A DNA stretch of 42,244 nucleotides from the NCBI GenBank assembly GCA_026394775.1, contig JAPLZY010000025.1, forward strand, positions 1 through 42,244, in the 5' to 3' direction. Position 1 is the stretch's first letter. Each line of letters begins with the position of its first letter. The notes under the pieces were generated by a model. It had not been told where the DNA came from. It saw only the letters and a program-made list of their open reading frames with translations, and did no database searches. The DNA comes from Candidatus Zambryskiibacteriota bacterium. Lineage in GTDB: Bacteria > Patescibacteriota > Minisyncoccia > Phycocordibacterales > DATDWN01. A program made the position numbers and the translations under genes. Of this stretch, positions 1,182 through 41,810 are shown in pieces.

Positions 1182-2852
1182 ATGACGCAAAAAGATGCAC
1201 TCGATATTTTGAAAATGGGGCACAATGTTTTTCTCACAGGGGCTGCCGGGAGTGGGAAGACTTTTGTGCTCAATCAATATATTTCATATTTAAAACAGTC
1301 GGGTGTGGAGGTGGCTATTACCGCATCGACAGGTATTGCATCCACTCATATAAACGGCATGACGATACATGCATGGTCTGGACTTGGTATTAAAAATAGT
1401 CTCTCTGACCACGATCTTGAAGCAATGATGGACAAGCAGTATCTTTTTAAGCGATTTGAAAAAACCCAGGTGCTGGTTATCGACGAGATCTCGATGCTCT
1501 CTGGGCGACAACTGACGATGGTGGAGTGGATCTGCCGGACGTTTAAAAGAAACGATCGACCGTTTGGAGGTCTTCAGGTTATTTTATGTGGAGACTTTTT
1601 TCAACTTCCGCCGATTACTCGCTTTGGAGACTCTGTTGAAGAAGGGCGTTCTAAAAATGATTTTGCATATGAGTCTGATGTATGGAAGTTTGCACAGTTT
1701 ACGATCTGCTACCTTTCAGAACAGCATCGACAGAAAGACAACGACTATCTCACCGTGCTAAACCAGATCAGGTCCAACACCGTAAGCAAAGAGACTATCG
1801 CTCTCCTGCAGTCTCGAGAACATGCAGAGTCAGATGTCGATGTTCCTCCAACCAAGCTCTACACTCACAATGCCGATGTGGATACGATAAACCACGAACA
1901 TCTTGAGACCCTGACCACGCACACCAAAGAGTTTGTTATGTCTTCTAAAGGTAAAGATTTTTTAATTGAAGGACTGAAGCGTTCGTGTCTTGCACCAGAG
2001 CGACTGCGTCTTAAAGAAGGTGCACGAGTGATGTTTGTAAAGAACAACTATGAAGTAGGTTTTGTAAACGGAACACTTGGAGTGATTACTGGCTTTAACA
2101 CCTTTGGCGAGCCTTTGGTGCGGACAGTTGGTGGAAGACTGATCTCTGTTACAAAAATGTCGTGGAGTATTGAAGAAGAAGGGAAGGTAAAAGCTGAGAT
2201 CACTCAGTTGCCTTTGCGTCTCGCATGGGCTATCACGGTACATAAAAGCCAGGGGATGAGCTTGGATGCGATGGAGGTGGATTTGCGAAAGTCTTTTGTA
2301 AAAGGTATGGGCTATGTGGCGCTCTCTCGAGTGCGTTCTTTGGGTGGAATGAAGTTACTTGGGTTTAATCCACTGTCCCTGGAAGTAGATCCTGATGTAT
2401 TAGAATTTGACCAAAATCTTAAAGAGCTTTCTTTTGATGCAGTGGAGGATTTGAGAAATATGTCTTTAGGTGAAAGAGGGAAGATACAAGAAGAATTTTT
2501 GTTTCGTGTCGCGCCACCAAAAGAACAAAAAGAAAAGAAAGAGCCAAAAAAGTCTGCACGAGAGATCACGAGAGAGATGCTTGCCGAGGGGATGTCTTTA
2601 GGGGAAGTGGCGGATGTTCGAGGAGTAAAACAGGATACCATAGTGTCACATATTGAAGAGTTGGTTGAGGATGGAATAGATATTGATATTGATCATTTAA
2701 AAAAAGAGTTTGCATATAAAGAGCTCGACACAATCATCGATGCGTTTGATACATGTGACACTACCACTCTTTCTCCGGTGTATAATTATTTGTCGAAGCT
2801 GAAGAAAAAGCCAACATATTTGAAGCTAAGAATTGCGAGGTTGTTTCTTTAA
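1182..2852 (+). CDS. PIF1-family DNA helicase with C-terminal HTH domain
   Basis: Walker A GAAGSGKT, VLVIDEISML, VHKSQGMSLD, C-terminal MSLGEVADVRGVKQDTIVSHIEEL (HTH_40/RQC-like). Confidence 0.88.
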   Translation: MTQKDALDILKMGHNVFLTGAAGSGKTFVLNQYISYLKQSGVEVAITASTGIASTHINGMTIHAWSGLGIKNSLSDHDLEAMMDKQYLFKRFEKTQVLVIDEISMLSGRQLTMVEWICRTFKRNDRPFGGLQVILCGDFFQLPPITRFGDSVEEGRSKNDFAYESDVWKFAQFTICYLSEQHRQKDNDYLTVLNQIRSNTVSKETIALLQSREHAESDVDVPPTKLYTHNADVDTINHEHLETLTTHTKEFVMSSKGKDFLIEGLKRSCLAPERLRLKEGARVMFVKNNYEVGFVNGTLGVITGFNTFGEPLVRTVGGRLISVTKMSWSIEEEGKVKAEITQLPLRLAWAITVHKSQGMSLDAMEVDLRKSFVKGMGYVALSRVRSLGGMKLLGFNPLSLEVDPDVLEFDQNLKELSFDAVEDLRNMSLGERGKIQEEFLFRVAPPKEQKEKKEPKKSAREITREMLAEGMSLGEVADVRGVKQDTIVSHIEELVEDGIDIDIDHLKKEFAYKELDTIIDAFDTCDTTTLSPVYNYLSKLKKKPTYLKLRIARLFL

Positions 2853-3009
2853 AAATCTTATCTCACCACAACTTTTCCATGGCAACCTATCTAGCCCTGG
2901 TGGGCTAGCGGACTGCTCGCCCTTCAAGAGACTAATCAACGGAGTACCGTTGTTATTCTCTAAGGGCTGTGCAAGGCCCTGGAAAAGTTATGCTGAGCAA
3001 GATTTTTTG
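2851..3009. repeat. terminal-inverted-repeat hairpin element, family 1 (inverted orientation)
   Basis: Arms AAAAATCTTATCTCACCACAACTTTTCCATGGC / GGCCCTGGAAAAGTTATGCTGAGCAAGATTTTTT; reverse complement matches both ends of 5519-5718. Confidence 0.8.
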
Positions 3010-5518: not shown

Positions 5519-5718
5519 AAAATCTTGTCTCAGCATAACTTTTCCAGGGCCTTGCACAGTGAATGGCGAGTGAGAAGACGTGTTACGTCTTCGCAAGACC
5601 TTGCCCAGGCTTTTGTACTCAAAGGACTGACAAGGTGTACAGCTCCTGTAAGGAGGTTCGCTAGCCCAACAGGGCTAGATAGGTTGCCCGGGAAAAGTTG
5701 TGGTGAGTAAAAGATTTT
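5519..5718. repeat. terminal-inverted-repeat hairpin element, family 1, containing structured motif copy A
   Basis: AAAATCTTGTCTCAGCATAACTTTTCCAGGGCC...GGTTGCCCGGGAAAAGTTGTGGTGAGTAAAAGATTTT; shares arms with 2851-3009. Confidence 0.8.
5574..5655 (+). other. structured motif copy A
   Basis: GAAGACG-TGTTA-CGTCTTC GCAAGACCTTGCCCAGGCTTTTGTACTCAAAGGACTGACAAGGTGTACAG CTCC-TGTAA-GGAG. Confidence 0.75.
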
Positions 5719-13237: not shown

Positions 13238-13310
13238 GGACCCAAGTGCAAGACCTTGCCTAGGCTTTTGTACTCAAAAGACTGACAAGGTGTACTGCTC
13301 CTGTAAGGAG
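13229..13310 (+). other. structured motif copy B
   Basis: CTTGGG-TAGGGA-CCCAAG hairpin spanning the rpoC stop, then GCAAGACCTTGCCTAGGCTTTTGTACTCAAAAGACTGACAAGGTGTACTG CTCC-TGTAA-GGAG. Confidence 0.75.
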
Positions 13311-17417: not shown

Positions 17418-20351
17418 ATGAAATTTGAAGAACGTTATAAAAAACTCAACGCTGAGCAGAAAAAGGCAGTGGATACCATTGAAGGGCCGGTGTTGGTGGT
17501 GGCGGGGCCGGGGACGGGGAAGACTGAGATTTTGACTTTGCGCATTGCACGTATCTTGCAGGATACTCAGACTGCACCTGAAAATATTTTGGCATTGACC
17601 TTTACTGAAGCGGGAGCTGCCAATATGCGAAAGCGCCTGGCTTCGCTTATCGGCTCTCCAGCATATCGTGTAGTGATCCAAACATTTCACTCTTTTTGTA
17701 ATAGTGTTATCCAGACATACCCTGAATTTTTCCCAAACATTATCGGCTCTGGCACTATTACTGAAGTAGAAAGTGTGGCTCTCATTGAAGAGCTTATTCT
17801 TACACTCCCGCTTTCTGTGCTTCGTCCGTGGGGCGAGCAGTTCCACTATGTCCGTGATATTGTAAGTAAAATCAGTGAGCTCAAACGAGAAGGTCTTTCG
17901 GCGACTGATTTTGCGAAACTAGTAATTGATGAAGAAAAGAAATTTGGTGCTCGAGAGGATTTGATACATGAAAAAGGTGCTCACAAAGGAAAAATGAAAA
18001 GTGAGTTTAAAAAGCTCGAACGTAAAATACAAAAAAATAAAGAGCTCTCAGATATTTACACCGCATACCAGGAAGCAGTGCATACCAAAAGACTCTACGA
18101 CTGGAGTGACATGATTATGGAAGTGCTCCGAGCCCTCCGGGAAGTGCCGGATCTCAAACTCCAGCTTCAGGAAAATCATCAGTATATACTGGTGGACGAA
18201 CATCAGGATACCAACAATGCTCAAAATGCGATTCTTGAAATCCTCTGTGATTTCCATCAGAGCCCAAATATTTTTATTGTAGGAGATACCAAGCAGGCTA
18301 TCTTTCGCTTTCAAGGTGCATCGATTGGAAACTTCCTTCACTTCAAGACACTCTACAAAAACGCAATCACTATTGAGCTTTCACAAAACTATCGCTCAGG
18401 GCAAACTATTCTCGATGGTGCTCACTCTCTCATGTCTTCGAGTACTCCGCTTGTTGCGGGAGGTCCTGTGGATACCGCACATATCCTGTACGCACAGTTT
18501 GCTCGGAGTGAATACGAGCTTGCGTATGTGAGTCAGGAAATTAAAAAACATATCGATGCAGGCACTCCAGGGCATGAGATTGCGGTGCTGTATCGCTCTA
18601 ACAAAGATGCATTTGGGATCAGCCACGCACTCTCTCAAGACGGGATTCCTCATACTATTGAATCTGATGAGGATTTGTTTGGAGATGTGTATGTCAAAAA
18701 AATTCTCGCTATCTTTGACTGCCTTCACAACTATGGTGATGATGCCTGCCTCTCTCTTGTACTTCATATGGAAGAGTGGGGAGTCGAGCCTATCAAAGCC
18801 TACCGACTGATAAAAGAAGCAAGTGCAACGAGAACTCCACTGTACGATGTGTTGAAAAAATCTGAAGACCCGAAGGTGACTCTCCTCTACGAGCAGATGG
18901 AAAAATGGGTAAAGGAAAGTCGACAGGAACACCTTCTTCAGTTTCTTGAAAAAGTCTTGCGTGAGTCAGGTCTGCTACAGTCTCTGATTGCAAGCAAAGA
19001 TGCGAGTGCGTTTTTAGGTATTGAACGCTTGTTTGAAGAAGCAAAACGAATGTCGGCAAACCGACCGGGCGTTTCTTTTGCTGACTTTATGCAGTACATA
19101 GAGACGATCAAAGAACATAAGCTTTTTATCAAACGACCAAAACAGCAGAGAACAGGGCTCGTGCGTTTTATGACGGTGCACAAGTCAAAAGGACTTGAGT
19201 TTGAACATGTCTACATAATACACGCGACAGAACATGCCTTTGGTCCAAAAAGCGACAGAGACCATTTGCCACTTTTAGATGCAGTGTATCGTCTTTCTGA
19301 TACAGAAGAAGATGAAGAAGTGCTCAGTACTGAAGATGAGCGTCGACTTTTTTATGTAGCACTCACTCGTGCTAAAAAATCTGTCTCTATTTCACATGCA
19401 CAAACGGACCTCTCTGGCCGTGACCTCTTACCTTCACCTTTTATACTTGAGCTTCGTCCTGACAGAGTCACAACGCTTGATGTATCTTCATTTGAAGAAA
19501 CATTGAAAAACAATCCAGCACATGCGTATCGAGAAGTGCAAAAAAATACAGCCACAGTGCTCGATGCGGATTTTGTGAAAGAACTTTTTTACGCACATCC
19601 GCTTTCTGTTACCGCACTCAACAACTATCTCTCATGCCCATGGAAATATTTTTATAGAAATCTTTTGCGTATTCCCTCTACTCCTGCACGACATCAGATC
19701 TACGGGACCGCGATGCATCATGCGGTAGAAGAAATGTTTAAAGCGTTTAAAGAAAGGGGGATGGATAAAAAGTTTTTGCTTGATTCATATACCCGACATT
19801 TGACGGCAGTTGGGATTTTGCGTGAACATGAATATGAAGAAGCTCTTGTACGTGGAAAAGAAGCGCTTTCGGGCTGGTTTGACCAGATAGAAGAGCCGAG
19901 CGTACCTATTGTGACTGAATATTCAATCCCTCATGTGAGTACGGCTTCTGGTATTGAACTTGCCGGTAAGCTTGATAAGGTGGAGTTTGTAAATGACGGG
20001 CATGTGTGGGTGACTGACTATAAAACCGGCAAACCAAAAAGTAGAAATGTAATAGAAGGGAAGACGAAAGAAGGGAACGCGGATATTAAACGCCAGCTTG
20101 TGTTCTATTCGCTTATACTTGGACTTCACAACCAAACAGAAATGGATAAAGGTATTATTGAATTTCTGGAACCAAATGATAGTGGGAAATATGTGAAAGA
20201 AGAATTTGTGGTCACCACAGATGAGGTAAGTGAGCTTGAGCAGACAATAGAAAAAGTGGCTGAAGAAATTACAACTTTGGCTTTTTGGGATAAAAGTTGT
20301 GATGACAAGGAGTGTGAGTATTGCGGGTACAGGAAACTTATCACAAGGTAA
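17418..20351 (+). CDS. UvrD/PcrA-like helicase with C-terminal PD-(D/E)XK nuclease and Fe-S-type cysteines
   Basis: AGPGTGKTEIL, VDEHQDTN, ALTRAKKSV; C-terminal LSCPWKYFYRN, VTDYKTGK, CDDKECEYCGYRK (AddB-like). Confidence 0.92.
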   Translation: MKFEERYKKLNAEQKKAVDTIEGPVLVVAGPGTGKTEILTLRIARILQDTQTAPENILALTFTEAGAANMRKRLASLIGSPAYRVVIQTFHSFCNSVIQTYPEFFPNIIGSGTITEVESVALIEELILTLPLSVLRPWGEQFHYVRDIVSKISELKREGLSATDFAKLVIDEEKKFGAREDLIHEKGAHKGKMKSEFKKLERKIQKNKELSDIYTAYQEAVHTKRLYDWSDMIMEVLRALREVPDLKLQLQENHQYILVDEHQDTNNAQNAILEILCDFHQSPNIFIVGDTKQAIFRFQGASIGNFLHFKTLYKNAITIELSQNYRSGQTILDGAHSLMSSSTPLVAGGPVDTAHILYAQFARSEYELAYVSQEIKKHIDAGTPGHEIAVLYRSNKDAFGISHALSQDGIPHTIESDEDLFGDVYVKKILAIFDCLHNYGDDACLSLVLHMEEWGVEPIKAYRLIKEASATRTPLYDVLKKSEDPKVTLLYEQMEKWVKESRQEHLLQFLEKVLRESGLLQSLIASKDASAFLGIERLFEEAKRMSANRPGVSFADFMQYIETIKEHKLFIKRPKQQRTGLVRFMTVHKSKGLEFEHVYIIHATEHAFGPKSDRDHLPLLDAVYRLSDTEEDEEVLSTEDERRLFYVALTRAKKSVSISHAQTDLSGRDLLPSPFILELRPDRVTTLDVSSFEETLKNNPAHAYREVQKNTATVLDADFVKELFYAHPLSVTALNNYLSCPWKYFYRNLLRIPSTPARHQIYGTAMHHAVEEMFKAFKERGMDKKFLLDSYTRHLTAVGILREHEYEEALVRGKEALSGWFDQIEEPSVPIVTEYSIPHVSTASGIELAGKLDKVEFVNDGHVWVTDYKTGKPKSRNVIEGKTKEGNADIKRQLVFYSLILGLHNQTEMDKGIIEFLEPNDSGKYVKEEFVVTTDEVSELEQTIEKVAEEITTLAFWDKSCDDKECEYCGYRKLITR

Positions 20352-20522
20352 AAATAATTTTCTAAAACCGTCCTCGCCTTTTATCAAACAAAGCGCAATT
20401 TTCTCTGCCTTGCCGCAGACTCCCTCTGGTCGGTCCTGAGTACAGGACTTAGTGCTCACGGCTAGAAAAAATTGCTGTTGTTTGAATTAAAAGTCTGCGA
20501 ATGCTTTTAGAAAATTGTTTTT
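20350..20522. repeat. long nested-hairpin element
   Basis: AAAAATAATTTTCTAAAA/TTTTAGAAAATTGTTTTT outer arms; CAAACAAAGCGCAATTTTCTC/GAAAAAATTGCTGTTGTTTG inner arms. Confidence 0.7.
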
Positions 20523-20615
20523 ACTCACTCAGGTCGTCTGTTTTTAAAACATTATCCTGAAAACCCTTTATTTAGATCCAAATTTTTGACTCATAGTTTT
20601 CTTAATGAAAAGTGC

Positions 20616-20643
20616 TTGACAATATTTTTAGGTGTGCTATATT
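20616..20643 (+). promoter_or_regulatory. sigma70-type promoter
   Basis: TTGACA-16-TATATT. Confidence 0.8.
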
Positions 20644-20649
20644 GTTGTA

Positions 20650-21140
20650 GTCAGGGACCTGGATTCCAGGCCAGTCGACTAGGTTAAATCCTATCGGTAA
20701 CCATTCCGTAAACCGTATAACGCCAGCTTTTATTTGCTAGTTTCTGGCTAGGTGTGGTGGAGTGAAATGGATTGATCATCCGTCTTGCTACTGCAGAACA
20801 TTACAACCGAAAGGGAAGTTTCCTCAAGGAGAGGTTACCTACTGAATATTGATCAGGCGAGTCCATGGCTCGCTGTAACCGGCGCCTTCGGGCACTCCCC
20901 ACATGCCCTTAGGGTGTCTGCGGCGATGCGGCCTGCGTAAGGTTGCCGGTTAAGTGCCGCTCTCGCTTCTCCCGCGCCTCTTTCGAGGCTATGAGAGCGA
21001 CGGCACTCGTTGCTCCTCGTTAGAGGAGCATGGTGGGGCGGCCACGCGTCTAACAACGCTAACCGCCCTCGACCAGAAAAATGTTCTTATAATAAAAAAA
21101 ACAAAAGCGGTACCCCTGAAGTTTAGGGTGCCGCTTTTTT
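20650..21140 (+). ncRNA. unassigned ~490-nt structured RNA
   Basis: Promoter plus intrinsic terminator; GC-rich, many stable hairpins (AACCGGC/GCCGGTT; GTGCCGCTCTC/GAGAGCGACGGCAC; GCTCCTC/GAGGAGC; GGGCGG/CCGCCC); no convincing ORF. Confidence 0.75.
21103..21140 (+). terminator. intrinsic terminator
   Basis: AAAAGCGGTACCCCTGAAGTTTAGGGTGCCGCTTTTTT. Confidence 0.85.
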
Positions 21141-21176
21141 CGCACTAATTTTTATTCAAAAAAATATAAAACAAAA

Positions 21177-21235
21177 ACCCCAAGGTCGGGTCTTGGGGAA
21201 ATAAAAAAACTCACACCAGGTGTGAGTTTTTTTTA
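21177..21235 (-). terminator. two consecutive hairpin terminators for the DsbA-like gene
   Basis: CTCACACCTGGTGTGAGTTTTTTT and CCCCAAGACCCGACCTTGGGGTTTTT on minus. Confidence 0.8.
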
Positions 21236-21238
21236 TTG

Positions 21239-21940
21239 TTATTTCAGAAGGAGATCAATCGTCCCTTTCAAATTTTCATATGGCTGAGCGCCGTTGATTG
21301 GAACTTTTGAACCATCTTTCTTGCTGATGATGATGCTGTAAGGTGTGCCTCGTGCACCTGCTTTTACACCGTCTTGGTAGTGAGCTTCTACAATCGCTGC
21401 TTTTCTTCCACTTGAGAGACATTCGTTAAACGCTGCGACATCGAGGCCGACATCTTTGGCGATAATTGGAAGTTGTTTGTCATCAAGACCATTGTTTGAT
21501 GGTGTTCTTTCGTAGAGAGTGTTTGTATATGCCCAAAATTTGTCAGGCCCTCCGAGTTCCTGTGCACATTCTGTTGCTTCGGCTTGCTTGCGAGCTTTTG
21601 AGTGAAGTTGGTCGATAGGGAAATGTCGGTATACCCACGCCACCTTACCGTCTTTGCCATACGTATCCATAACTTTTCTCATAGTAGAGTGGAACTGCTT
21701 ACAGAACGGACATTCAGTGTCTGAATATTCTACAATGACCAACTCTGCATTTGGGCTACCTACAATGTGGTCAGTGTCATCTACTTCTCGCATACCTGAA
21801 GCTGTTACGGTGTCAGGTGCAGGTTGGGCTGGGACAGTTGTTTTGCTTCCAGAGAAATATAAAGCTGCTGCGATCAGTCCACCTGCTACGACAATAGCGA
21901 GAGGAACTCCGAGTTTCTGAATTGTATTTTGTGTATCCAT
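21239..21940 (-). CDS. DsbA-like membrane-anchored thiol:disulfide oxidoreductase
   Basis: N-terminal TM; ECPFCKQFH CxxC motif; cis-Pro GTPYSIII. Confidence 0.93.
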   Translation of the reverse strand: MDTQNTIQKLGVPLAIVVAGGLIAAALYFSGSKTTVPAQPAPDTVTASGMREVDDTDHIVGSPNAELVIVEYSDTECPFCKQFHSTMRKVMDTYGKDGKVAWVYRHFPIDQLHSKARKQAEATECAQELGGPDKFWAYTNTLYERTPSNNGLDDKQLPIIAKDVGLDVAAFNECLSSGRKAAIVEAHYQDGVKAGARGTPYSIIISKKDGSKVPINGAQPYENLKGTIDLLLK

Positions 21941-23224: not shown

Positions 23225-23346
23225 GGATTTTCAGATTTGAGGCAAGGTCGCACAAAAAATTAAAAAAAGAATCGGAGGCATACTTGCTGGTATGATGAGA
23301 ATATTTTTTTAATTTTTTGTGATGAGATTGTCCAAATATGAGAATC
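23225..23346. repeat. nested-hairpin element family 2, copy 2 (inverted)
   Basis: Reverse complement GGATTCTCATATTTGGACAATCTCATC...CATACCAGCAAGTATGCCTCCGATTCTTTTT...GCGACCTTG. Confidence 0.75.
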
Positions 23347-29172: not shown

Positions 29173-29293
29173 GTCAGGTCTTTTTAACCAATTTCATCGT
29201 CTAAATTTCAAAAAATATTCTTCGCCGTGCGTACAGTATGCATGCGAATATTTTCTAAAATTTATACGCGACCTTGGTCAAAAATCCTCTGAC
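29173..29293. repeat. nested-hairpin element family 2, copy 3
   Basis: GTCAGGTCTTTTTAACCAATTTCATCG ... GCGTACAGTATGCATGC ... GCGACCTTGGTCAAAAATCCTCTGAC. Confidence 0.75.
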
Positions 29294-41501: not shown

Positions 41502-41810
41502 TCCGCGGTAGCTCAGTGGTAGAGCAAGCGACTGTAAAATTGCAGCTTCCAAGAGAAATCTTGGTTGACAAATGAGGTGAATTCGGGGAAACCCCACGGT
41601 TGTAAAGACCAGGACAATCCCGAGCCAAGCCTTGAAAGAAATTTCAAGGAAGGTGTAGAGACTATCTCGCAAGAGAGTACTCGGTGTAACAGCCCAGGAA
41701 GCGCCTCACTCCTAAGTCCGAAAGGATATGGAGATGATATAGTCCATGCTTTCAGTAATGAAAGGAGCCATGTAATCGCTTGGTCGTAGGTTCGATCCCT
41801 ACCCGCGGAG
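41502..41810 (+). tRNA. tRNA-Asn(GUU) interrupted by a group I intron
   Basis: Spliced: TCCGCGGTAGCTCAGTGGTAGAGCAAGCGACTGTTAATCGCTTGGTCGTAGGTTCGATCCCTACCCGCGGAG; full cloverleaf, anticodon loop CTGTTAA; CCA not fully encoded. Confidence 0.9.
41536..41772 (+). other. group I intron (tRNA-type, IC3-like), no ORF
   Basis: P1 CUGU/GCAG with U.G at the 5' splice site; terminal G at 41772; GACAATCCCGAGCCAAGC, AAGGTGTAGAGACTAT and GATATAGTCC core segments; P7 GACTAT/ATAGTC. Confidence 0.9.

Follow-up and report, generated by a model that had tools for sequence, protein, structure and literature searches.

The window, meaning the whole stretch of 42,244 nucleotides that was analysed, is contig C32 of the 753-kb, 99.7%-complete genome of an ultra-small (CPR) bacterium, assembled in 32 contigs. 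A homology search with the DsbA protein of the window returned nearest homologues from Zambryskibacteria and other Parcubacteria/Patescibacteria. Many contigs of this genome have common identical ends of 140-141 bp, as are left where an assembler run at k=141 breaks its contigs at repeats. The candidate RNA unit described here is adjoined by housekeeping genes (dnaG, a UvrD helicase with a PD-(D/E)XK nuclease domain, and genes for a DsbA-like and a BacA family protein) and lies, together with a palindromic repeat, in the 887 bp gap between uvrD and dsbA (Table 1). The repeat is an imperfect palindrome with three genome copies (the one in Table 1, C20:1638-1793 and C1:21699-21945), one of which carries an extra insert of ~80 bp. 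Several families of interspersed repeats (~60-160 bp, often palindromic) occupy many intergenic regions of the genome, with examples in the window at 2853-3005, 5519-5717, 13252-13310, 23230-23337 and 29183-29282; some adjoin tRNA genes and contain apparent tRNA 3' sequence.

Table 1. Coordinates of the candidate RNA unit, its predicted elements and its neighbours (window positions).
Feature	Position	Strand	Remarks
UvrD-family helicase, C-terminal PD-(D/E)XK nuclease domain	17418-20351	+	upstream neighbour of the candidate RNA
Palindromic interspersed repeat, ~170 bp	20348-20524		directly upstream, outside the candidate RNA; overlaps the uvrD stop codon
Sigma-70-type promoter TTGACA-16-TATATT, extended -10 (TGc)	20616-20643	+	11/12 consensus match
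Predicted RNA transcription unit	20650-21138	+	putative start 6-7 nt past the -10 element; end at the terminator
5' half	20650-20875	+	small hairpins and a possible domain; fold no better than chance
5'-half small hairpins	20658-20670, 20680-20693, 20767-20783, 20842-20856, 20857-20873	+	predicted fold
Possible 5' domain closed by GGUAACC/GGUUACC	20696-20702/20833-20839	+	predicted fold
Domain closed by GUAACCGGC/GCCGGUUA	20875-20952	+	predicted fold
Long hairpin AGUGCCG...CGGCACU	20953-21007	+	predicted fold
8-bp hairpin UGCUCCUC-GUUA-GAGGAGCA	21011-21030	+	predicted fold
Hairpin UGGUGGGGCGG...CCGCCCUCGACCA	21031-21075	+	on the opposite strand the stem is more continuous, with G-U pairs
Strong intrinsic terminator, hairpin AAAAGCGGTACCC/GGGTGCCGCTTTT, then T run	21103-21138	+	U-rich tract on both strands
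DsbA/thioredoxin_4 protein	21239-21940	-	downstream neighbour, convergent; own terminators at 21174-21233

Both the consensus promoter and the strong intrinsic terminator claimed in an earlier sequence-only reading of this DNA were found in place. Sites that match the promoter consensus at 11 of 12 positions occur only four times in the 42-kb window, both strands counted, and among these the TGn extension is present only at the candidate; genome-wide there are 49 such sites, 13 of them with TGn. Promoter and terminator bracket a non-coding segment in the same orientation and at suitable spacing, the arrangement of a free-standing, intrinsically terminated ncRNA gene, and transcription would be of the sigma-70 type on the plus strand. 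With a terminator of its own and a convergent gene next to it, the candidate is not a leader of that gene; the same two features suggest that it would act in trans, probably as a stable RNA that binds protein or forms an RNP.

The non-coding body between promoter and terminator (~440 nt) is GC-rich, as had been proposed. Positions 20651-21075 form the GC maximum of the window among stretches of 425 nt (55% versus 42%) and rank 41st of 29,589 windows genome-wide. No coding signal was detected, in agreement with the earlier description of the segment as non-coding, and the two longest open frames of the unit gave no Pfam match. In AT-rich genomes, structured RNA genes are known to show up as long intergenic regions rich in GC (PMC8632094). 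The candidates of the GC-IGR pipeline share this diagnostic, a long intergenic region with a GC content well above that of the genome, but rest on comparative sequence analysis (PMC8632094), whereas for the present candidate no homologue was found in the genomes searched.

Fold stability was compared with that of shuffled sequences. A z score of -7.1 was obtained over 20647-21140 with the terminator included, and one of -4.5, beyond all shuffles, over 20650-21090 with the terminator excluded. The 3' half (z = -4.9) would fold into four adjacent, well-defined hairpin domains; the 5' half (z = -1.6) is ordinary, 10 of 200 shuffles being as stable, and its fold is uncertain because GGUAACC has two possible partners, GGUUACC (20833) and GGUUGCC (20941). 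The proposed AACCGGC/GCCGGTT domain stem is present (20876-20883/20945-20952), and the proposed minimum of five hairpins was borne out in the predicted folds. The description "highly structured" calls for qualification: the statistical support for folding comes from the 3' half and the terminator and does not extend to the 5' half, and much of the z score of -7.1 is due to the terminator. A weakly structured 5' half behind its own promoter and ahead of its own terminator would also suit a base-pairing regulatory sRNA, in which the hairpins protect short unpaired seed regions of the 5' half; the candidate is, however, very long for such RNAs and has no homologues in the genomes searched, and this reading is considered improbable.

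The reverse complement is equally stable (z = -5.3; its 3' half, -6.9), so the strand is not fixed by folding. A structured transcript of the minus strand, arising by read-through from dsbA or as an independent RNA, would account for the better folding there of the 3' half and of the hairpin at 21031-21075, in which G-U pairs replace the A-C mismatches of the plus strand. The 5' half, on the other hand, folds better on the plus strand, no promoter-like site was found on the minus strand within 20300-21400, and both the dsbA terminators and the two-sided terminator of the candidate stand between; a minus-strand origin is judged very improbable. In a genome-wide scan of non-coding windows of 300 nt, the best window of the locus ranked 20th of 378. 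The 19 other intergenic windows that beat their shuffles by more make stability alone unremarkable in this genome; those inspected contained palindromic repeats, tRNA regions, RNase P RNA and tmRNA. The locus stands out because a stable fold, a promoter, a terminator, high GC content and uniqueness occur together.

Another reading considered was that the candidate belongs, in divergent form, to a known kind of RNA (RNase P RNA, tmRNA, SRP RNA, a group I/II intron, or ROOL, GOLLD, OLE or HEARO). Rfam gave no match to the candidate at the gathering threshold or at E<=10 on either strand, save low-scoring terminator noise. This agrees with the sequence-only reading, in which no RNase P, tmRNA, SRP or group II signature had been seen; a match to rnpB, ssrA, ffs or another Rfam family, which would speak against an orphan RNA, was sought and not found. 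The candidate had no covariance-model match to RNase P RNA (RF00010 and related; conserved P4 core) or to tmRNA (RF00023; tRNA-like domain, tag frame), and the true copies lie elsewhere in the genome, at C26:10164-10630 (109.6 bits) and C21:35680-36090 (75.1 bits), respectively. These two are likewise single-copy structured RNA genes of a length similar to that of the candidate, which has a GC content of 52% versus 47% for RNase P RNA and 43% for tmRNA. Group I and group II introns (catalytic core P3-P8 or domain V) gave nothing in the candidate at E<=10; the same library finds a group I intron (RF00028, 68 bits) at 41526-41765, near the contig end. None of the Rfam covariance models of ROOL, GOLLD, OLE, HEARO and raiA matched, and the attC-like letters GTTAGAG and GTCTAAC were read in the wrong order for an integron attC site.

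For SRP RNA (RF00169, RF01854) the candidate was again without match, and manual reading disclosed no helix-8 motif (GNRA-type tetraloop, symmetric/asymmetric loops). The one point in favour of a divergent known RNA is that SRP RNA was not recognised elsewhere in the source genome (both models); nor was it recognised in 61 genomes of the order (RF00169), most controls being positive. This gap does not point to the candidate, because relatives that lack the candidate share it and because no DTAGR motif or Ffh/FtsY-type P-loop (G-domain) motif was seen in the source genome. The source organism and its relatives may have lost the SRP pathway or have a very divergent one. Membership of a known family is disfavoured as highly improbable.

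The candidate is single-copy in its own genome by BLAST and by covariance models. Among 99 relatives and 384 genomes of the class, BLAST found no DNA homologue, and none turned up in phages, plasmids or E. coli. Two single-sequence covariance models, R1 (3' half) and R2 (5' half), were run against relatives, the class, DsbA neighbourhoods and the own genome; no relative was found with R1 in 397 relatives or with R2 in 384 class genomes, and an R1 match in G491 (15.7 bits) sits within a coding frame. Exact-motif scans of IMG/VR viral contigs with seven motifs gave no homologue, the matches being limited to 16-26 nt or to one 45-nt stretch of 80% identity within a phage gene. The best match, at 1314-1339 (minus strand) of L118 and identical to window positions 20797-20822 at 25 of 26 nt, lies in a phage-type gene, shows no further similarity and is probably due to chance. 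Homologues had also been sought at the same place in relatives, and the candidate was absent from every one checked. Several relatives keep the convergent uvrD-dsbA pair with gaps of mostly -8 to 60 bp, as against 887 bp here. In UBA910, of the same genus, the gap is 51 bp and holds only a terminator; L018, also with a longer gap, has unrelated sequence there. The genome collections searched sample about half of the known species, so close homologues may exist among the remainder or in metagenome assemblies.

These results bear on the main rival, namely that hairpin-rich DNA without RNA function, a foreign or repeat remnant with chance promoter- and terminator-like sites, was inserted between uvrD and dsbA. 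It would explain why the gap is occupied in this species only and why there is no conservation in the genomes searched; an interspersed palindromic repeat directly adjoins, and stable palindromic intergenic repeats abound in the genome. The candidate itself, however, is unique and no repeat, consists of several domains and not of a single palindrome, and combines a near-consensus extended -10 promoter with a terminator in matching orientation. Inserted DNA of this kind is rated as unlikely, though with appreciable weight.

An orphan non-coding transcription unit of ~490 nt remains the best reading of the anatomy. Promoter and terminator match, GC maximum, a fold beyond shuffles, the missing coding signal, the short gaps of relatives and uniqueness argue for an RNA gene; the lack of a homologue in the genomes searched, and hence of any sign of selection, the chance-level 5' half, the unfixed strand and the commonness of stable intergenic hairpins argue against one. 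The case is weaker than first suggested, since the strongest z score is due in part to the terminator and no homologue is available for a conservation or covariation test. Judged from the sequence, the segment likely merits the term "gene", whereas "functional structured RNA" would go too far. An even chance is given to the fuller proposal of a single-copy, free-standing ncRNA gene, inserted or newly evolved in the uvrD/dsbA gap of this Zambryskibacteria-like genome. Recent acquisition or fast evolution would be the best reading of its history.

Like OLE, ROOL and GOLLD, the candidate is several hundred nt long, multi-hairpin and free-standing (PMC12286853). Those families have many members, whereas the candidate is without conservation in the genomes searched and without an Rfam match to them. 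ROOL and GOLLD are encoded in prophages and phages, and the function of GOLLD is unknown (PMC12286853); unlike them, the candidate was not found in the searches made of phage records and IMG/VR. A more far-reaching reading, that the candidate stands for a new class of large, ornate RNAs (a ribozyme, an RNP scaffold or an assembly of RNA alone) which is confined to a small group of Patescibacteria and reached a neutral intergenic site by horizontal spread, appears rather improbable. If transcribed, the unit would add a large, unexplained structured RNA to a genome reduced to 0.75 Mb, where keeping nearly 500 nt for a private RNA gene comes at a notable cost, and it would offer a concrete case in which to study the origin of new structured RNAs in CPR bacteria.
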